From positions 1-22,130 of the IMG/VR virus record IMGVR_UViG_3300032753_000193: DNA of 22,130 bases. One strand, given 5' to 3'. Below, piece by piece: positions 1,009 to 14,200 of the stretch. Below the pieces are notes generated by a model. It saw only the letters and a list, made by a program, of their open reading frames with translations, had not been told where the DNA came from and made no database searches. Made by a program: the position numbers and the translations under genes. This stretch comes from a virus. How positions within the stretch are numbered: position 1 is the first letter of the stretch; every line of letters starts with the position of its first letter.

Positions 1009-1139
1009 TTCTTTTTACAGATATGTTCATGAACCACATCCGCAATGAATGTCATAAGGTGCAACGGGGAGTACTGGTTGGGCGAGCCGAGGTTGACAAT
1101 CGTTCCGCACTTGGGGCAACGACAAAGTATTTCCATCAT
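1005..1139 (-). CDS. 44-residue Cys-motif (zinc-ribbon-like) protein
   Basis: A short frame begins MMEILCRCPKCGT and ends HEHICKKN. It has Cys6, Cys8 and Cys11 near the start and His38/His40/Cys41 near the end, an arrangement able to bind one zinc ion. I recognise no named family. The first ATG (1139) overlaps the TGA of the glycosyltransferase-methyltransferase gene in an ATGA junction; the second ATG at 1136 is also possible. GGGAG lies about ten bases upstream, a slightly long spacing. Its TGA stop falls within the -35 box of the promoter at 980-1008. The small size limits confidence, but the coupled start and the ordered metal-ligand spacing argue for a real gene. Confidence 0.55.
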   Translation of the reverse strand: MMEILCRCPKCGTIVNLGSPNQYSPLHLMTFIADVVHEHICKKN

Positions 1140-2356
1140 ATGAGAAGTTCTCCCGGCAGTCTCTCGTCGTTCTTGATAGCGACAAGGTTGGCATGGACAT
1201 AGGCAATGTTGGGACGCGGCCAGTCGGTGTACAAGCGTGACATCTGGAACCGACAGGTGATGTCAGGGACATATTTGGCAAACTCGGCGTTGGTGTAGTA
1301 CCAGAACGAGTGTTCATTCCAGAAAGAAACGTGAGTCGGATCTTGAAAGGCTCCTCGCCCGTCAGTGGATGGGGTGGAAGTCAGCATCATCCCGCCGTGG
1401 TGTAGCACTCTGTAGCACTCATTCATCAGCGAGACAGGATCAGCAATGTGTTCAAGGAAATCCACAGCTCGAATCACTCCCACCGAATTGTTGGGCATCT
1501 TGGATAGGACTTCCATAATGTCGCCCGTTATGTCGGCATCGTGCAGATCTACTGACTGATAGCTCGGAGGCGAGTTGTGCGCTCCGCCGAGGTCGAGTCG
1601 TTTCAAGCCCATGCGTCGTGCCCATGCGAGAGCGTTCGGCTCAATCGTCCTGTCGTACATATGGACTGTCTCAGTTTGGATACGAGCGTTCAGGTCTTGG
1701 CGAGCCTGTGTCTGCTTTGAGTGAACCCGTTGGCTGTAGATCGGCCAGCCGATGCAGTAGAAAGGTCCGTACTGATACAGCCGAGCAATCAGGTCTTGGT
1801 CGTCAAGGATGTCTAGCGTCCTGTCATAGCCCCCTACAGCGTCGTATGCGGCCCTAGAAAATGCCCTGAGGTGGTTTGGTGCGTACCAGATATACGACAC
1901 GGCAGACGGGACAGCAGGGAATGAGCGTACCCAACCGTCAGTTGATTGCTGCCAGCCAAAGATGGGGTTGAAAGGATGCTCGAACCACTTGCCTTCTTCA
2001 TTGACATGCCTGAAATCTGAGTAGACCATGCCAGCCAAAGGTCGGTCCTTGAACTTCATGGCTACCATTTGCAACGCGGCAGGTGCGAGCATGTCGTCGT
2101 GGTCTAACTCTACGAGGATATCCCCCGTACACCATGACACCGCATCAGACTTGGCAGCGCCGACAGCCATAGGCCCGCGGTCATTTGCTCGAACGATCTT
2201 TACCCGAGGATCATCTAATCTTTCGAGCCACCAATCTTGGGCTTCACCGTTGAGATAAACGATCCATTCCCAATCTTTATGGGTTTGTTTATTTAAAGAA
2301 GCGTAGGCGTCGTCTAGGTATTTTGGGTTGTGCGAAGGGGTAAAGACACTAATCAC
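1136..2356 (-). CDS. Fusion of GT2 glycosyltransferase and class I methyltransferase
   Basis: This 406-residue protein has two enzymes in one chain. Residues 1-235 are a GT-A fold family 2 glycosyltransferase: the first strand MISVFTPSHN, a nucleotide-binding region, and the metal-binding DHDD at 85-88. Residues 250-395 look like a small SAM-dependent methyltransferase: LDLGGAH (254-260) as a degenerate motif I, VDFLEHI (298-304) as in type 11 methyltransferases, and ECYRVLHHGG (313-322). By family knowledge it would move a sugar from a nucleotide sugar to an acceptor and methylate a nearby group; the acceptor is unknown. The start is a GTG that overlaps the phosphoesterase gene by eight bases. 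It has a weak ribosome site, but a later start would destroy the first strand. Separate genes of this kind are common in capsule loci; the fusion on a phage is unusual. Confidence 0.8.
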   Translation of the reverse strand: MISVFTPSHNPKYLDDAYASLNKQTHKDWEWIVYLNGEAQDWWLERLDDPRVKIVRANDRGPMAVGAAKSDAVSWCTGDILVELDHDDMLAPAALQMVAMKFKDRPLAGMVYSDFRHVNEEGKWFEHPFNPIFGWQQSTDGWVRSFPAVPSAVSYIWYAPNHLRAFSRAAYDAVGGYDRTLDILDDQDLIARLYQYGPFYCIGWPIYSQRVHSKQTQARQDLNARIQTETVHMYDRTIEPNALAWARRMGLKRLDLGGAHNSPPSYQSVDLHDADITGDIMEVLSKMPNNSVGVIRAVDFLEHIADPVSLMNECYRVLHHGGMMLTSTPSTDGRGAFQDPTHVSFWNEHSFWYYTNAEFAKYVPDITCRFQMSRLYTDWPRPNIAYVHANLVAIKNDERLPGELLI

Positions 2357-3182
2357 TCACGGGAGCATACAACTTTGGCCGGTGGTCTGCCAGCCTTTTG
2401 CCCGTGTATCTGCGACACAAATAATCAAGGCTGACGAACATCGGATCGTAGGCTCCATCTTCGACCTGGTGCTTGACGATGATGCCTCGCCAGTACGCTT
2501 GCTGCGGTCCAAGGTAATCCTCATCGTGGAGATACGCTGCGCCTGCGACAAGCCCGTTCTGCTGTTTGCCTGCGACATAGCGCACGCCATAGAGAAGAAC
2601 TTGTTGGTGCCCCATCGTGAACGAATGGCCGATGGACTTCAAGCGAGTTTCAGTTGCCCCACCAAGGGGGCGTCCGTTCATCTGGTTGTAGAAGTAGTGG
2701 CTGTAGCCCACACCGTCAAGCCACAGGATTTCACGGAAAGGATGGACTTCCCAACCCGTTCTTGCAAAGTCAAGGTCGTTCTCGGAGATAGTCCCCTCCA
2801 GCTTTGCATCGAGAGAGATAGCCCTGCTGATTCTGTCCTCATGGTTGCCGAGGGTGATATGACGCTCAGGCCACCATTGCTTTTCTTTGAAGCGTTTGCG
2901 GACAAGGTTGTATTCCACAAGAGGTTTGTTGAGGAGTTCCCAAGCGTAGTTGGCGGCTTCGATGTCCTTGGCATAGCGTCTGCCCTCCATTTCTTTCTTG
3001 CCCTTGTCATAGGACGACAGGGATTCCATGTCAGCGAAGTCACCAAGGTTGACAATCTTGATTCGCTCTTTGCCAGCGAATGAATCAACAATGTACTGCC
3101 CAATCCAAACAAGGTGGTCAAGCGGTACGCCAGGTTTTGTTTGGCAGTCTGGAATTACTATGTGGGTAGGGATTGCCGACAT
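2349..3182 (-). CDS. Calcineurin-like metallophosphoesterase
   Basis: This 277-residue protein has the metal-site motifs of the calcineurin-like phosphoesterase superfamily in order: PDCQ (11-14), GDFAD (47-51), GNHED (112-116), SHYF (161-164) and GHQQ (191-194). The first motif is D-x-Q instead of the usual D-x-H, a variant seen in some phage members. The likely activity is two-metal hydrolysis of a phosphate ester or diester; the substrate cannot be told from the sequence. The start is well supported by AGGGAGGA six bases upstream. It lies between the lysis block and the glycosyltransferase-methyltransferase gene, overlapping the latter by eight bases, so it may act with the glycan-modifying enzymes or on nucleic acid. 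Confidence 0.8.
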   Translation of the reverse strand: MSAIPTHIVIPDCQTKPGVPLDHLVWIGQYIVDSFAGKERIKIVNLGDFADMESLSSYDKGKKEMEGRRYAKDIEAANYAWELLNKPLVEYNLVRKRFKEKQWWPERHITLGNHEDRISRAISLDAKLEGTISENDLDFARTGWEVHPFREILWLDGVGYSHYFYNQMNGRPLGGATETRLKSIGHSFTMGHQQVLLYGVRYVAGKQQNGLVAGAAYLHDEDYLGPQQAYWRGIIVKHQVEDGAYDPMFVSLDYLCRRYTGKRLADHRPKLYAPVSD

Positions 3183-3197: not shown

Positions 3198-3710
3198 TTA
3201 TGCCTCCGTAAGCATAGCAAGTTCTGCGGGAGAAACCTGGAATGGGTCTAAATCTCTACCCTTTAGGTCTTTGCACTCCCACCCCCCGTGCTCCCAAGCC
3301 CGTGCGACAAGGGCGCTACAGATCAAAGCATCTCCTGCCCTGCGGAAATCAAAGCGGATGAATTTAGGGGTGAGAAGGTTGAAGGCGATGGAGACAATGG
3401 TGCTGATGCTGTACTTAACTCCCACCTGCTCTTTGGCGTAGGCGATGGCCTTGAACCTGTCAACTCCTACAGGACAGGGACGGATGGCGAGGTAGCCGGT
3501 AGGTGCCACGTCTGAGATTGGGACGAGCTGACCACGACGACCCATCTGGACGCACATGGTTTCCTTGGTGCCGATGTCAACGACGATAGCGGCGTGGTTC
3601 CACTTCTTGTACTTGCGCCATGAAGGACGAAGCCACTGACCGAATCGGATCAGTGTTGCGAACAAACCTTTGTTGTGGGCGAGAACGAGGTCGCCCGGTT
3701 GGGGAGTCAA
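3198..3710 (-). CDS. Permuted NlpC/P60-like (YiiX-type) cysteine hydrolase
   Basis: This 170-residue protein begins TPQPGDLVLAH, the usual opening strand of permuted papain-like NlpC/P60 proteins. It has KWNHAAIVV with His39 and DALICSALVARAW with Cys131. His before Cys is the order expected of the circularly permuted YiiX/YebB-type subfamily. The C-terminal DPFQVSPAELA is also typical. Activity could be amide or ester hydrolysis in peptidoglycan or lipid; the substrate is not defined. The start is a TTG at 3710, four bases overlapping the stop of the 31-residue membrane gene (TTGA), with AGGAG six bases before it; no in-frame ATG lies early enough to keep the PGDLVL strand. It follows the endolysin and membrane genes, so a second lysis enzyme is plausible. 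Confidence 0.68.
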   Translation of the reverse strand: MTPQPGDLVLAHNKGLFATLIRFGQWLRPSWRKYKKWNHAAIVVDIGTKETMCVQMGRRGQLVPISDVAPTGYLAIRPCPVGVDRFKAIAYAKEQVGVKYSISTIVSIAFNLLTPKFIRFDFRRAGDALICSALVARAWEHGGWECKDLKGRDLDPFQVSPAELAMLTEA

Positions 3711-3802
3711 GACTTGCTCCTCTTAATCATGATGTATGCACCTGCAAGGCACACAGCAAAAAAGAATACGACCAATGGGATACCTACGGCTTGTGCCATC
3801 AT
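3707..3802 (-). CDS. 31-residue single-pass membrane protein
   Basis: The frame encodes MMAQAVGIPLVVFFFAVC, continues hydrophobic to AYIM, and ends in the basic tail IKRSKS. That is one transmembrane helix of about 20 residues with a positively charged C-terminus. The start ATG (3802) overlaps the upstream TGA in an ATGA junction and has AGGAG five bases before it; its TGA overlaps the TTG of the next gene. Coupling on both sides and the ideal membrane-helix composition support a real gene despite its size. A holin, pinholin or antiholin-like role is inferred from position only. Confidence 0.6.
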   Translation of the reverse strand: MMAQAVGIPLVVFFFAVCLAGAYIMIKRSKS

Positions 3803-4182
3803 CCACGCTCCTGCTTGTAACGGATCATTTCACGCTCTAACCAACGGATCTTTGTGTCCCGTTCGTCATCTTCGGCTGCTTCTTCATGGTCTATGACCTT
3901 CTCTTTGCCGAGTACGGTGGCGTGATAGGTGACGAAGTATGCCGTTATCAGAATTGGTAATACGCCTACGAATCCCCATGCTCCGTAGTTGTGGGTCAAG
4001 GCAACACCGGCGAAGGAAAGGACAGTCAGGTTGGCTACGTCGTAGCAGACGTTCATCATGCCAGCCAAGTGTCCTCGCCCAGCGGTGATGGCATGCGTGA
4101 GGATTGTGGAAGTGTAGTCAAGGATCGCCATGCCTACCGAGCCGACTGCCGAGTACATGACAATGTGCCAGAAGGTTGACAT
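3799..4182 (-). CDS. Multi-pass membrane protein of lysis block
   Basis: This 127-residue protein has about three hydrophobic segments: around residues 5-25 (HIVMYSAVGSVGMAIL), 45-65 (VANLTVLSFAGVALT) and 70-90 (WGFVGVLPILITAYFVTY). They are followed by a highly charged tail with heptad-like EEAAEDDERDTKIRWLEREM, which could form a short coiled coil in the cytoplasm. I do not recognise the family with confidence. The ATG at 4182 is used rather than the TTG at 4188: it overlaps the upstream TGA by one base and has AAGGA six bases before it. Its position among four membrane genes between the endolysin and the second hydrolase makes a holin or lysis-timing role likely. Confidence 0.6.
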   Translation of the reverse strand: MSTFWHIVMYSAVGSVGMAILDYTSTILTHAITAGRGHLAGMMNVCYDVANLTVLSFAGVALTHNYGAWGFVGVLPILITAYFVTYHATVLGKEKVIDHEEAAEDDERDTKIRWLEREMIRYKQERG

Positions 4183-4541
4183 CAACAATCCTTACGGTGC
4201 ATGTCTCGAACATCGTCGAGGATTTCGTTTGTCTCCTCTAGTTCAGCCTGCATCATCTCGATTATTTGGGCTTGACGCTCAATCAGAGTTTGGAGTTGCA
4301 GGCTTGTGACTGCATTGGACTGAGCGAGGGCAGGCTGCGTGATGGCCGAGTACACCGTCAGAACTGCAAGCAGGTAGAAGTAGTGAGGGTCGAGATTGGG
4401 CCAGATAATTTCCACGACGCAGATAATGAGACAGACGAACAAGGTCTGCCAAACGCAATCGGGGGAGGCGAACCAGTTGTCAAACCAAAGAAGCGCCTTG
4501 TCTTGTTGGCGTCGAATGAAAGATTTTTCTGATCCGATCAT
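4182..4541 (-). CDS. Two-pass membrane protein with coiled-coil tail (holin candidate)
   Basis: This 119-residue protein opens with a charged amphipathic segment, then has two transmembrane helices at about residues 31-48 (VWQTLFVCLIICVVEIIW) and 54-70 (YFYLLAVLTVYSAITQP). A long helical tail rich in Gln and Glu follows (LQTLIERQAQIIEMMQAELEE), probably a coiled coil. The two-helix plus coiled-coil layout resembles the short low-affinity iron permease-like membrane proteins and also many actinophage holins; the residues alone do not separate the two. The start forms an ATGA overlap with the small membrane gene upstream. Two cysteines lie within the first helix, and one is the final residue. 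Confidence 0.6.
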   Translation of the reverse strand: MIGSEKSFIRRQQDKALLWFDNWFASPDCVWQTLFVCLIICVVEIIWPNLDPHYFYLLAVLTVYSAITQPALAQSNAVTSLQLQTLIERQAQIIEMMQAELEETNEILDDVRDMHRKDC

Positions 4542-4663
4542 CGTTTGTTCCTATACCACTTGGCTGTGCCGATGATCGCTCCGACAACAGCAAGAATAAA
4601 ACCAAAGATGAACCCAGCGGAAGCGAGCGTCCCAAGGACGGTGTTCCAGTAGGTCCAACCCAC
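4538..4663 (-). CDS. 41-residue single-pass membrane protein (holin candidate)
   Basis: The reading frame contains one strong hydrophobic helix, LGTLASAGFIFGFILAVVGA, flanked by Trp and ending in the basic tail KWYRNKR. The open frame extends upstream over the endolysin gene, but that part is Cys/Arg-rich and translates as overlap noise. I therefore place the start at the GTG at 4663, which overlaps the endolysin TAG by one base (TAGTG) and has GGGG five bases upstream. A GTG at 4687 is the main alternative. The stop overlaps the next ATG (ATGA). Being directly coupled to the endolysin, it fits a minimal class III-type holin or spanin-like partner, although function is inferred only from position and shape. 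Confidence 0.5.
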   Translation of the reverse strand: MGWTYWNTVLGTLASAGFIFGFILAVVGAIIGTAKWYRNKR

Positions 4664-5379
4664 TACAGCCCCAACAAGATTCCCCACGTCTGAGGACCCA
4701 CAACACCATCGGCTGTGATCTTGAAGAAGTTCTGAACGTTCTTGACAGCCTGCTGCGTACCAGGACCGAAGGCTCCGTCTACTGCAATGTTCTGGCTGCA
4801 CTTGTCTTTAAGAAGCGCCTGCACAGCTTTGACATATCCAGTTTGGGAAGCGTTAATTGAAAGGGTAGGAAGAATCACATCTGCTCCTGAGGTTGGGGGG
4901 GTTACTGCTGTTGCTGATGGGACTCCCGAGGTTCCAATCTGCGTGGTGTCGAAGCGGAGGTAACGCTGTGGCTGCCTCCCATCTTGTGAGACATGGATAA
5001 GCGACGGGTCGCCCTGCTCGCCCATGCTGATAGTAAGTGGGTCCGGTCCGGCTTGCACAACAAGCGCCGTGTGTTCGCCGGTTCCCGGCCCGTAAACGAT
5101 GACATCTCCGGGGATTGCTTCGCTTACAGGAATCTCGATACCGTGTGAGAGCAGCGTGCCAGTGTAGCCCTGTCCGTCAAAGCCCTGCCCGTTCGGGTCG
5201 GCAGCGCCAGCCCATGAGTAGCAGTAGGTCACGAACGCTGAGCAGTCACAGTAGATCGTGCCATTGCCCGGGCTGTGGACATTCTGCATACGCTGTGGAC
5301 CTTCGGTGTAAACGAAGCGAGCGTTGTTAGCAACGCCCCAGTTAGCCCATGCAACAATTTGGTTACGAACGTCAGCCAT
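4663..5379 (-). CDS. Endolysin: NlpC/P60 domain plus peptidoglycan-binding domain
   Basis: This 238-residue enzyme has two domains. Residues about 1-140 are an NlpC/P60-like cysteine peptidase: YCDCSAFVTYCY with catalytic Cys46, IPGDVIVY (89-96), and GEHTALVV with catalytic His103. A Thr/Pro/Ser/Ala linker (about 145-170) leads to a PG_binding_1 module (about 175-238), recognised by DGAFGPGTQQAVKNVQ and ADGVVGPQTW. The family cleaves peptide bonds in the peptidoglycan stem and binds the wall through the C-terminal module. There is no signal peptide, so export through a holin is expected. An in-frame start at 5418 exists, but AAAGGA five bases before the ATG at 5379 and the preceding fibre stop at 5388 favour the shorter form. 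Small membrane genes follow immediately. Confidence 0.88.
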   Translation of the reverse strand: MADVRNQIVAWANWGVANNARFVYTEGPQRMQNVHSPGNGTIYCDCSAFVTYCYSWAGAADPNGQGFDGQGYTGTLLSHGIEIPVSEAIPGDVIVYGPGTGEHTALVVQAGPDPLTISMGEQGDPSLIHVSQDGRQPQRYLRFDTTQIGTSGVPSATAVTPPTSGADVILPTLSINASQTGYVKAVQALLKDKCSQNIAVDGAFGPGTQQAVKNVQNFFKITADGVVGPQTWGILLGL

Positions 5380-10998: not shown

Positions 10999-11318
10999 TT
11001 CTGAGCAAGTTCCTTGACTGTAGATTCAACTCGGGTGGCGAGAGCCCTGTCACCGATAATCTTGCCTGTTTCAATCTCTCGTTGAGTTGAAGCACGATCT
11101 TGTAAATCCGCTGCGCCCTTCAAGGACTTGGGTTGGATTCCCTGCTGGCGCATGGCTTTGAAAGCGTCACGGTCACGGTCAAGTTCTTTGTCGTTCTTCC
11201 AGGGGCCAGACGCAACTTGTGGCTTGCGAGTTGGCATGGCCGATGCAGCAAAAGAAACAGATTTGATCTTGCACGCAAAGCAAGATTCGTCATGTTGTCC
11301 AAAATGCTTGATACTCAT
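10995..11318 (-). CDS. Small basic protein with HHCC metal-binding motif
   Basis: This 107-residue protein starts MSIKHFGQHDESCFACKIKS. His5, His9, Cys13 and Cys16 form an H-x3-H-x3-C-x2-C pattern that should bind zinc. The rest is rich in Lys, Arg, Asp and Gln, with little hydrophobic core before a helical C-terminus (RALATRVESTVKELAQK), so it may be partly disordered outside the metal site. I believe similar short proteins occur in other actinobacterial phages near tail genes, but no function is known to me. The start overlaps the stop of the repeat protein in an ATGA junction with AGGAAAC about eight bases upstream, and its own stop overlaps the glycosyltransferase GTG. Possible roles are virion component or nucleic-acid binding. 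Confidence 0.7.
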   Translation of the reverse strand: MSIKHFGQHDESCFACKIKSVSFAASAMPTRKPQVASGPWKNDKELDRDRDAFKAMRQQGIQPKSLKGAADLQDRASTQREIETGKIIGDRALATRVESTVKELAQK

Positions 11319-11554
11319 GGCAGCGTGTTTCCTGCCAAAACATTCAGGGCGTGTACGCCTTCAAGCCCAACGGTGCCAGCAAGGACGTTGCACACTCCGG
11401 CAAACTCCAAGCCAACGGTGCCAGCTTTGTAGTTCAGAGCGCCATTCAAAGTACGGTTGGTAGTGCCAGCGTAAACGTTTGCTGCGCCAACAGCTTCTTG
11501 TCCAGTGGTTCCTGCTAGTTGGTTCAAGACTCCTGCGAGTTCACGGTAAGCCAT
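11315..11554 (-). CDS. Small protein of five 15-residue repeats
   Basis: This 79-residue protein consists, after MAYRE, of five consecutive units of about 15 residues: LAGVLNQLAGTTGQE, AVGAANVYAGTTNRT, LNGALNYKAGTVGLE, FAGVCNVLAGTVGLE and GVHALNVLAGNTLP. The shared pattern is x-x-G-[AV]-x-N-x-x-A-G-T-x-x-x-E. The regular spacing of Asn, Ala-Gly and small hydrophobics suggests a compact solenoid or a helical hairpin stack. I do not know its function; position between a fibre block and tail genes suggests a virion decoration or fibre-associated protein. A longer frame starts at 11599, but AGGAG with four bases' spacing before the ATG at 11554 and the upstream stop at 11562 decide for the short form. 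Confidence 0.72.
   Translation of the reverse strand: MAYRELAGVLNQLAGTTGQEAVGAANVYAGTTNRTLNGALNYKAGTVGLEFAGVCNVLAGTVGLEGVHALNVLAGNTLP
11318..11539 (-). repeat. Five in-frame 15-residue (45-base) coding repeats
   Basis: Translated units of 45 bases repeat five times in register across almost the whole of the 79-residue gene. The third and fourth units share AGTVGLE exactly. The repeats are clear in protein but diverged in DNA, so they are old duplications kept by selection on structure, not a recent expansion. Confidence 0.75.
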
Positions 11555-11561
11555 TGTTCTC

Positions 11562-11999
11562 CTAGATCGGGGTAATGCGGTCCGAGTAGCCAGCAGCACT
11601 CAGGAAGTTGGCCTCGGTCTGGTTGATGGTGTACAGGTGACTCCCATAGTAGACGTAATCTATGTAGACAGGAAGTGTTGCTGTCTCAATTGTCAAGTCC
11701 CAGTTTGTTGTGTAGGCGAATGGGCCAGAGGGATCGTTCAAGATCCACGGCAAAGGGTACGAAGTGTTTGAGTTCTCTGCTGTCGCTGTGTCTTGTGCCA
11801 CAGTCCCATCAGATAAGACAAAGACGTTCACGCCACGAGTCTTGGGACGGTAGTGGCGCAACAACCAAACAGCAGGACCGTGATCGTCTGGCAAGTAGTT
11901 CGGGATGTCGTCAACCGTTGGCGTCTGGAAATGAAACAGTGGACCCGTAGAAACAGGATCGGCTGAGTAAGTTGATGCGGAGTAGGGTGCGTCAATCAT
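11562..11999 (-). CDS. Hypothetical virion-associated protein
   Basis: This 145-residue protein is aromatic-rich and probably mostly beta, with segments AVWLLRHYRP, VNVFVLSDGTVAQD, YTTNWDLTIETATLPVYIDYVYYGSHLYTI and a helical end NQTEANFLSAAGYSDRI. The final part (YYGSHLYTI-NQTEANFLSAAGY) resembles a short motif found in minor structural proteins of actinobacterial phages, but I cannot assign a family. The ATG overlaps the TAA of the collagen-like fibre by one base (TAATG), suggesting coupled translation. It may be a fibre-associated or chaperone-like partner of that fibre. No signal peptide or membrane segment is visible. Confidence 0.65.
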   Translation of the reverse strand: MIDAPYSASTYSADPVSTGPLFHFQTPTVDDIPNYLPDDHGPAVWLLRHYRPKTRGVNVFVLSDGTVAQDTATAENSNTSYPLPWILNDPSGPFAYTTNWDLTIETATLPVYIDYVYYGSHLYTINQTEANFLSAAGYSDRITPI

Positions 12000-14200
12000 T
12001 ACTGGCTCACCAATGTTGCTGAAAGATAAGTGCTAGTACCGGAACTTCCCGATGAAGCCGATGCACCAGTATTTTGACCATAAAGAGCAATTGTTTGACC
12101 AGCGGCAACGTATTGAATGTCAGAAACACTAACAACATTAAATGTTGCTGCCGTTACTCCGGCTTGAGCAACATTAGAACCATTTACATAAATAAAAACA
12201 ACATTTAATCCGCTAGAACCACCGCAGTTAGCGGTACCATCTATTTGATAATAACCAGAAATCGGAGCAATAAGAGTGTTGCCGCTTTTAGTCATTCCGC
12301 CTTTCAAATAAGATTGACCTGCAAGAGCAATTTGTGTTGCGGTTGTTCCAACAGTTGTTGCTGCATTTGCATAAATTCGCCCAGCGGGGTTTGCTTGCGT
12401 TGGGTTGCCTGCTTCAAGAACCCAAGAAGTCGTGTTGGAATTGTATACAAGGTATGCAGATTGACCTGCGTACAAGCGCCCAACTGAGTAGTCAAGCGTG
12501 TTACCTGATCCAGCCGCAACCGTGACATATGAAGTAGCCGCTGCCAAAACGTACACGCCACATATTGTTCCGTTAGCGGGTGAAGCGGGAAGCGTTACGG
12601 CAAATGTGCTTGAAGGGTTACAAACCGTTACCTGTCCAGCAGTAGCCGTGACAGCAGAAGTTTGAGATGTTGAGGCAGGAAGTATGGAAGCACCTTGGTA
12701 GCCCTGATACCCTTGGTTGCCTTGATATCCTTGCGAGCCCTGCGCACCAGTTGAACCCTGCGATCCCGTAGCGCCCTGCGATCCCGTAGCGCCCTGCGAT
12801 CCGGTAGCGCCCTGAGATCCTTGACTGCCCGTCGCTCCTTGACTACCCGTCGCTCCCTGTGTTCCCTGATTGCCTTGGTATCCCTGTTGGCCTTGAGCGC
12901 CGGTAGCGCCCTGAGATCCTTGACTCCCTTGCGCTCCCTGAAAACCTTGCGGGCCTTGTACGGTAGACGCCTGACCCTGATAGCCCTGAGCACCTTGAAA
13001 TCCTTGATTACCCTGATAACCCTGATTACCTTGATATCCTTGTGGGCCTTGAACGCCTTGGGTTCCTTGTGGTCCGGTAGAGCCGACAACGCCTTGGTTG
13101 CCTTGGTAGCCCATCGTGCCTTGATTGCCCTGATAACCCTGAGCGCCTTGGCTTCCCGTCAATCCTTGGGTTCCTTGGAATCCTTGATTTCCTTGCGTGC
13201 CCTGATAGCCCTGCGGTCCCTGATAACCCTGATTGCCTTGGTTGCCCTGACTCCCCTGTGGCCCTTGGGCACCAGTGGCCCCTGTAGTCCCCTGTGGGCC
13301 TTGCACTGACGCACCTTGGTATCCTTGTGGCCCCTGGCTCCCTGTGGCTCCCTGAGAGCCTTGTGGACCTTGTGCGCCCTGAAAACCTTGCGGGCCTATG
13401 GCTCCGGGGTTGACCTCAGATTGGGCAGTCCAAATGCCAGTGGCGGAATCGTAGAGGAACGTAAAGTCCATCAACGCCTGTGTCAGTGAGATGGAGGTTG
13501 GACCACCTGCGAGGTTGAACACGTCTGTTCCCGAAGTGAGGATGTTGACGGTGTTGTTTCCCTTGATGATCTTGACGCAGATGTACGCACCGTTCGGTTG
13601 GCCCGAAGCAAGGGTGACGTTAAAGCCGCCAGCGGTGGAGTCGCAAGGGATGAGGTTGCCGTTGTAGGCAGTCGTAGCGCCTGTGGCTACAGCGGTGCGA
13701 GCGAGTCCTTGAAGCTTGGAGTTTTGAAGCGTGGTGTCGGCAGACGCACGGGTGGAAGCCTCAGCCGAGACTTGACCCTGCACGCCAGTAATGGCTGCTG
13801 CTCGAACGCTTTGTTCGGTGGAGATGGCGGAGGAGAGACTTGCTTCGGCTGCTTCAGCACGGGCAGTCTCAGCGGTGGTAAGAGATTCAATGTCCGATAC
13901 ATCAGCGACAGCGAAGCCGTGTGACCATGCGGTGTAGATCGGCCAGCCCTGTGCAACGGTGGAATCACCTGCACGAGTGACGACAGCCGAAGTAGCCCCC
14001 GTGATGTGGGAGGTGACGTAGACATTTTCAGCAGCAACGATGTTGCCGTTTGAGTCAGTCGAATAAAGGCAGACAAGAGCGACATCCCCTCCCCCAACCG
14101 TACCCATTCGGGCAAGGCCAGGAGAAGAGATTGTCGTGTCTGTGGCTGCGATAGGGGCGCTTAGTTCCCCTCGTACCGCGTCAAACCGCAGGCGGGCCAT
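11999..14200 (-). CDS. Collagen-like tail fibre with C1q-like tip
   Basis: This 733-residue fibre is clearly modular. Residues 1-105: beta module ending VVTRAGDSTVAQGWPIYTAWSHG, related to the attachment module of two other virion proteins here. Residues 105-165: Ala/Glu/Ser-rich helix (ETARAEAAEASLSSAIS), probably a trimeric coiled coil. Residues about 175-262: a beta domain ending FLYDSATGIWTAQ. Residues about 267-503: collagen-like Gly-X-Y repeats, unusually Gln-rich (GYQGNQG). Residues about 510-598: a second copy of the beta domain, ending LVYNSNTTSWVLEAG. Residues 603-733: a C1q/TNF-like tip starting NPAGRIYA and including YVNGSN. The role is presumably adsorption to the host surface as a trimer. 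The start ATG at 14200 has GGGGG four bases upstream. Confidence 0.82.
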   Translation of the reverse strand: MARLRFDAVRGELSAPIAATDTTISSPGLARMGTVGGGDVALVCLYSTDSNGNIVAAENVYVTSHITGATSAVVTRAGDSTVAQGWPIYTAWSHGFAVADVSDIESLTTAETARAEAAEASLSSAISTEQSVRAAAITGVQGQVSAEASTRASADTTLQNSKLQGLARTAVATGATTAYNGNLIPCDSTAGGFNVTLASGQPNGAYICVKIIKGNNTVNILTSGTDVFNLAGGPTSISLTQALMDFTFLYDSATGIWTAQSEVNPGAIGPQGFQGAQGPQGSQGATGSQGPQGYQGASVQGPQGTTGATGAQGPQGSQGNQGNQGYQGPQGYQGTQGNQGFQGTQGLTGSQGAQGYQGNQGTMGYQGNQGVVGSTGPQGTQGVQGPQGYQGNQGYQGNQGFQGAQGYQGQASTVQGPQGFQGAQGSQGSQGATGAQGQQGYQGNQGTQGATGSQGATGSQGSQGATGSQGATGSQGATGSQGSTGAQGSQGYQGNQGYQGYQGASILPASTSQTSAVTATAGQVTVCNPSSTFAVTLPASPANGTICGVYVLAAATSYVTVAAGSGNTLDYSVGRLYAGQSAYLVYNSNTTSWVLEAGNPTQANPAGRIYANAATTVGTTATQIALAGQSYLKGGMTKSGNTLIAPISGYYQIDGTANCGGSSGLNVVFIYVNGSNVAQAGVTAATFNVVSVSDIQYVAAGQTIALYGQNTGASASSGSSGTSTYLSATLVSQ
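12692..13402 (-). repeat. Collagen-like Gly-X-Y coding repeat
   Basis: About 236 residues of near-perfect Gly-X-Y triplets, with X often Pro, Tyr, Phe, Asn or Ser and Y nearly always Gln, Thr or Ala. Two interruptions break the triplet phase: GASVQG (residues 297-301) and GQASTVQG (about 409-415). On the plus strand the region appears as repeated Cys/Trp/Leu-rich frames, which are shadows. Such repeats are prone to length change by recombination or slippage. Confidence 0.9.
12761..12814 (-). repeat. Three tandem 18-base units inside the collagen repeat
   Basis: On the plus strand the unit cgatcccgtagcgccctg occurs twice without change, at 12761-12778 and 12779-12796, and a third time with one substitution (c to g) at 12797-12814. 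Each unit encodes six residues (two Gly-X-Y triplets). The near identity compared with the diverged remainder of the collagen region indicates a recent expansion. Confidence 0.85.

Follow-up and report, generated by a model that had tools for sequence, protein, structure and literature searches.

A viral DNA stretch of 22,130 bases (IMG/VR virus record IMGVR_UViG_3300032753_000193, positions 1–22,130; hereafter the window) carries four small membrane-protein genes in series between an endolysin gene and a second hydrolase gene. We consider it rather probable that the block serves as a multi-holin lysis cassette, its membrane proteins contributing to a joint lesion and sharing its timing, and that the phage is tailed, probably of the podovirus type, and has an actinobacterial or other Gram-positive host. 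The genes, their overlaps and conserved order, the protein families, and the predicted topologies are established; from these we infer every functional step and the host. The cassette lies entirely on the minus strand and runs from the endolysin to the 170-residue hydrolase (TM, transmembrane):

4663..5379, minus strand: endolysin, 238 residues, ATG start at 5379 and stop at 4663; PG_binding_1 and a CHAP/NlpC-like catalytic domain
4538..4663, minus strand: 1-TM protein, 41 residues, GTG start; 1-base overlap with the endolysin gene (TAGTG)
4182..4541, minus strand: 2-TM protein, 119 residues, ATG start; 4-base overlap with the 41-residue gene
3799..4182, minus strand: 3-TM protein, 127 residues, ATG start; 1-base overlap with the 119-residue gene
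3707..3802, minus strand: 1-TM protein, 31 residues, ATG start; 4-base overlap with the 127-residue gene
3198..3710, minus strand: permuted papain-like (C92-type) hydrolase, 170 residues, TTG start; 4-base overlap with the 31-residue gene
2349..3182, minus strand: metallophosphoesterase, phrog_221 match at 2.1e-40; next after the cassette in most relatives

Several different membrane genes follow the endolysin directly on one strand, as in multi-holin cassettes, and the successive junctions through the hydrolase overlap by 1, 4, 1, 4, and 4 bases. A first-pass annotation had described four consecutive small membrane proteins (41 residues from a GTG, then 119, 127, and 31) with overlaps of one to four bases and a second hydrolase behind them, and the coordinates agree. 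Its remark that the 31- and 41-residue genes are too short for usual gene finders was overstated, given that the length floor of Prodigal is about 90 bases.

We parsed 46 IMG/VR contigs, 36 found by profile scans and 10 through the hydrolase profile; the scan contigs 3300021139_001461, 3300032117_000449, and 3300002307_001267 stayed outside the parsed set. Clustering the first set by the 127-residue protein at 90% identity gave 17 groups, and the second was divided by eye into six. The cassette proteins of contig L002 are 100% identical to those of the window. In all 21 groups with a visible upstream end, an endolysin-type gene is followed by the 1-TM gene, in two of them with an extra small gene in between, and the order endolysin, 1-TM, 2-TM, 3-TM is largely kept across the parsed contigs. 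The 3-TM family occurs in all 17 first-set groups, where the 3-TM gene or a neighbor was the search key, and in five of the six second-set groups (9 of 10 contigs), which had the hydrolase as their only search key. In the 2-TM slot, 12 groups have the 119-residue family and five, with Pfam run on one contig per group, have DUF1003 (L063, L093, L101, L102/L106/L107, and L103–L105). In L064/L070 the slot has an unclassified 2-TM candidate and in L111 a DUF1003 match below threshold; three groups (L058, L061/L062, and L100) leave it empty, and in L052 it is not visible. The earlier reading of the region as a lysis block is supported by its position and by the endolysin adjacency in every visible group, and no case was seen of membrane genes away from an endolysin, the arrangement that was to speak against it.

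The same counts bear on the alternative that the four include a single holin, either the 3-TM or the 1-TM protein, and that the rest are neighbors with other duties, for instance in superinfection exclusion or envelope stress. We regard this as rather unlikely. It agrees with the three groups lacking a 2-TM gene, with the restriction of the 31-residue gene to two groups, and with the glycosyltransferase, Cys-rich, and other genes that the block of the relatives also harbors, but it is opposed by the 1-TM gene after the endolysin in 21/21 groups and by the refilling of the 2-TM slot at the same place when the 119-residue family gives way to DUF1003.

The endolysin of the window matched PG_binding_1 in Pfam at 1.6e-13 and, just under the respective cut-offs, CHAP at 1.1e-4 and NLPC_P60 at 2.1e-4. 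No hydrophobic segment, signal, or anchor was seen at its N terminus, and the enzyme would therefore need a membrane lesion. In relatives the catalytic part is CHAP/NlpC-like, Amidase_2, or GH25, so the membrane genes hold their order while the upstream enzyme gets exchanged. Some of these assignments came from other routes: for L035, L044, and L057 a text motif located the endolysin first and Pfam then confirmed it, and the endolysins of L059, L058, L061, L065, and L100 were assigned solely by a hidden Markov model (HMM) of the window endolysin. The endolysin of group 14 (L064/L070) fell under the Pfam GH25 cut-off, those of L101 and L103 just under the NlpC/P60 and CHAP cut-offs, and L111 shows the PG_binding part only.

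To evaluate the two shortest genes, we used 20,000 dinucleotide shuffles in which the overlaps were held fixed and an open frame with the observed hydrophobicity was scored. Open frames alone were common, at 26% for 31 codons and 22% for 41 codons, and openness therefore proves little. An equally hydrophobic open frame arose in 0.005% of shuffles for the 41-residue gene and in 0.015% for the 31-residue gene, their hydropathy cores being 2.51 and 2.56. The Shine–Dalgarno match of the 41-residue GTG is ordinary (equaled by 16% of 1130 background start codons), in keeping with translation coupled to the endolysin stop, and the start probably depends on such coupling; close relatives have ATG at its position. 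Within the L003 clade, L006 and L007 differ at 17 sites in this gene, 12 of them third positions (nonsynonymous rate dN 0.06, synonymous rate dS 0.52), a pattern indicating that the gene evolves as coding sequence in the clade; in the comparison with L046 the synonymous rate was not computable. Stop codons in relatives had been set as the refuting observation for both short frames, and on that count the 41-residue gene survives.

The 1-TM slot of relatives also holds longer proteins. An HMM of the short forms matched the long ones at 2.5e-7, the reciprocal long-form HMM matched the window's 41-residue protein at 1.7e-5, and hhalign related the two sets at 96%. By these profile comparisons, the 41-residue protein corresponds to the membrane half of a homologous 1-TM protein of 95–128 residues and is a tail-less form of it; the long relatives carry a charged, probably helical tail that is absent from it. 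Short forms of 38–41 residues were found in four of the 21 groups, with the 38-residue protein of L035 assigned by position and hydropathy only; the 1-TM proteins of L061, L062, and L111 did not reach the hydropathy threshold, and their assignment is by HMM. In a tree of 15 metallophosphoesterases, all five short-form rows group in a seven-member branch that is weakly supported (89/95). A single loss of the tail is possible, and the tree needs three label changes, with L052 scored as not short although its contig stops before the 1-TM gene. From its charge distribution (no lysine or arginine before the core and four after), the 41-residue protein is predicted N-out/C-in. One such helix followed by basic residues is the predicted layout of LysF1b-type proteins, whose charged cytoplasmic tail is present in the long homologs and missing here. 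Membership in PF10874 (DUF2746), the family tied to LysF1b, was rejected for the 41-residue protein, as it gave no match to that family at E up to 1. PHROG 1009 hit 9 of the 11 long 1-TM relatives but also all 14 control genomes and was left unused as evidence.

The 31-residue gene has the second strongest Shine–Dalgarno sequence of 11 starts tested, equaled by 1% of the 1130 background starts. Its counterpart is a 29-residue homolog found only in L016/L017 (contigs L046/L047), with the same overlaps at both ends; it is missing from the remaining 20 of the 22 groups that have a 3-TM gene. In the L003 clade its slot is taken by a Cys-rich gene, and seven of eight differences between L003 and L007 fall on third positions, marking that gene as coding. 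The check for stops in relatives thus gave a divided outcome for the 31-residue frame, with a counterpart in 2 of 22 groups and a different gene in the L003 clade. It is improbable that the frame is an untranslated open spacer between the 127-residue gene and the hydrolase: conservation no further than one close relative group and the frequency of 31-codon open frames in shuffles are as a spacer would have it, but the rarity of a comparable hydrophobic core, a similarity to the 29-residue counterpart exceeding segment-wise shuffles (p 0.0002), the overlaps at both ends of both genes, and the strong Shine–Dalgarno sequence argue for translation. The gene is probably real but lineage-specific and dispensable in the wider family. 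A spanin or lipoprotein reading of the 31-residue protein was dropped, as no lipobox was seen on reading its sequence. The suggestion that the four proteins form an envelope-spanning set found no support either: a reading of the sequences showed neither a spanin-type protein nor a lipobox. A small Cys-rich, zinc-ribbon-like protein shifts within the cassette among relatives: it stands after the 3-TM gene in L003 (5874-5990) and at the same place in L006–L009 and before it in L057 (4825-5001), L051 (448-609), and L064/L070 (L064:3509-3658).

The 119-residue protein has hydropathy cores of 2.27 and 1.48. Its family (13 sequences, 49–73% identity) shares a conserved core DPHYFYLL...QPALAQ and a helical C-terminal tail, and its AlphaFold2 model is poor, at low confidence (predicted local distance difference test, pLDDT, 62). 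With lysine plus arginine averaging 5.2 per sequence in the N-terminal part, 0.15 in the loop, and 4.9 in the C-terminal part, it is predicted N-in/C-in, so that its two helices have the predicted layout of LysF1a-type proteins. No Pfam match to PF06210 (DUF1003) was found in the window's protein. An initial single-sequence comparison was negative; profile against profile, the family and its DUF1003 relatives showed a weak in-register match (hhalign probability 9%, pairwise E 0.0035), and one DUF1003 relative scored 2.3e-4 with the 119-residue profile.

For the 127-residue protein, AlphaFold2 placed helices at 2–34, 37–66, and 69–92 (33, 30, and 24 residues), followed by a charged, acidic C-terminal helix (pLDDT 73, predicted template modeling score 0.47). 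Its family was represented by 18 sequences. The loop charges predict N-out/C-in, and three such helices correspond, as a prediction only, to the class I holin layout. The helices are mildly hydrophobic, with cores of 1.43, 1.47, and 1.68. Membrane topology had been called visible in the sequence; with cores of only 1.43–1.68 it is less visible in the 127-residue protein. Fold searches with its model found no hit below E 0.04 among viral models and, in the Protein Data Bank (PDB), none approaching significance.

The 170-residue hydrolase scored 17.6 bits against Peptidase_C92 (PF05708), under the cut-off of 27, and 7.8e-13 against phrog_1128; the PDB gave no sequence match. His39 and Cys131, in permuted order, are invariant in 16/16 hydrolase sequences, and we take them to be the catalytic residues of a C92-type hydrolase, which may cut a second envelope bond. 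The gene is present in 15 of the 17 first-set groups and absent from L063 and L065/L066. It could also form, with the 31-residue gene, a separate envelope-modifying pair unrelated to the lesion, next to a holin that releases the endolysin. The pair shares a 4-base overlap and strong Shine–Dalgarno sequences at both genes, unlike the three upstream membrane genes, and the persistence of the hydrolase without the 31-residue gene in most groups was counted in favor of this arrangement. A 31-residue gene of this kind should, however, track the hydrolase through the family, and it does so in two groups only; we judge the arrangement very improbable. A C92 relative in phage Elmer lies among transfer RNA genes, outside any lysis cassette. 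Between the 3-TM gene and the hydrolase, three groups carry a family-2 glycosyltransferase-type gene (L048:2307-3542, L059:4189-5424, and L051), whose homolog in the window (1136-2356) follows the metallophosphoesterase; at the same place, eight contigs (L100–L107; e.g., L106:4256-4990) encode an unclassified protein of 240–244 residues.

Elsewhere in the window, the structural gene block includes a 733-residue protein (11999-14200, minus strand) whose GPQG/GYQG repeats form a long collagen-like region, and a 94-residue protein (11315-11599, minus strand) is built of short repeats (LAGT...N units). Scans for promoters and terminators yielded no clear surplus relative to shuffled sequence.

Several observations weigh against a multi-holin cassette in this phage. 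Pfam and PHROG gave no name for any of the four membrane proteins, no sequence kinship to a lysis protein of proven function was found for them, and PF10874 matched none of the 11 long 1-TM relatives and none of six records. The 119- and 127-residue proteins had no match in 50,697 phage records, and the species-genome scans returned neither a match to them nor a prophage relative, and so pointed to no host. The capsid has its closest matches, at 45% identity, among Streptomyces phages of the Immanuel3 group, a point in favor of the reading, but Vibrio and Bacillus phages are also among its matches. The empty slots show that the 2-TM protein is not essential everywhere. Finally, L063 (2604-3968) and L093 (2765-3970) retain the membrane genes with GH25 endolysins that carry an N-terminal Sec-type signal, as judged by eye; endolysin exit is thus not the sole job of the membrane genes there, which suggests that depolarization is part of their work.

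Under the multi-holin reading, which we still favor, the endolysin, having no export signal, would wait in the cytoplasm, and the 1-TM, 2-TM, and 3-TM proteins would be co-made by coupled translation and gather in the cytoplasmic membrane. The lesion would be made by the 3-TM protein, with its class I holin-like layout, by the 1-TM protein, with its LysF1b-like layout, or by both; the 2-TM protein with its helical tail may help time it, as the LysF1a/LysF1b pair does in mycobacteriophage Girr. Such a lesion would free the endolysin and collapse the proton motive force. The 31-residue protein would be a lineage-specific accessory, most likely a lesion modulator, and the C92-type hydrolase would probably attack the second bond. 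The proposal of a multi-part pore or timing device is in this light plausible. A more specific version appears possible but doubtful: a fixed three-part machine, in which the 1-TM, 2-TM, and 3-TM proteins form one heteromeric lesion, would accept three endolysin chemistries, could use DUF1003 as its 2-TM part and a 1-TM part shrunk to ∼40 residues, and in one lineage would have its timing tuned by the 31-residue add-on. If so, DUF1003, a bacterial family of unknown function, gains a lysis role; no paper on DUF1003 in phage lysis was found in the literature searched, which mostly excludes subscription journals. How phages lyse Gram-positive hosts is poorly understood, and cassettes of three to four membrane proteins have mostly been described as unordered collections. 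The present case is most useful for its conserved slot order, its tail-less 1-TM protein, and the replacement of the 2-TM family by DUF1003: with an ordered set and interchangeable endolysins, such natural variants could separate the hole-maker from the clock.

Published systems give close parallels. The actinobacteriophage cassettes, known from a survey of 2022 that covered 16 Gordonia phages (PMC9671378), from phage Xenia2 with four membrane proteins (PMC11385102), and from the podovirus Bouclier with 2-TM, 4-TM, and 1-TM proteins (PMC13286697), place as many as four different membrane proteins of one to four helices behind an endolysin on one strand, with 1-TM members predicted N-out/C-in as here. 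Four membrane genes in series exceed the textbook holin/antiholin pair, as the first-pass annotation had stressed, but are already known from these phages. Their authors report no gene-order pattern, whereas the 1-TM, 2-TM, 3-TM order recurs here over many contigs, and their 1-TM proteins have 79–145 residues against 41 and 31 in the window. No LysB was noticed in the window, where no profile search for it was made. As templates, Immanuel3, with its endolysin beside the terminase and its annotated holin far off, and the cassette of mycobacteriophage Paito, which gave no useful relation, were set aside.

LysF1a and LysF1b of Girr and NormanBulbieJr are likewise an adjacent 2-TM N-in/C-in and 1-TM N-out/C-in pair with a 4-base overlap; both are needed for efficient lysis, deleting either gene in Girr changes lysis timing, and phages with the 1-TM protein only are still lysis-competent (PMC13056207). 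The window differs in its reversed gene order, the missing PF10874 match, and the added 3-TM protein, and its 41-residue protein lacks the charged cytoplasmic tail of LysF1b proteins, which have 92–150 residues (PMC13056207). The 127-residue protein resembles the class I holins, for example lambda S105 (topology per PMC9671378), in its three predicted helices, N-out/C-in orientation, and charged C terminus; it differs in that no sequence relation was found and no dual start was seen, in its weakly hydrophobic helices, and in being preceded by 1-TM and 2-TM partners. DUF1003 (PF06210) supplies 2-TM members for the same slot in distant relatives, and the window's 119-residue protein differs from it in having a weak profile match only. 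Against this background, the new details are the conserved slot order, the miniature 41- and 31-residue members, and DUF1003 in the 2-TM slot of distant relatives.

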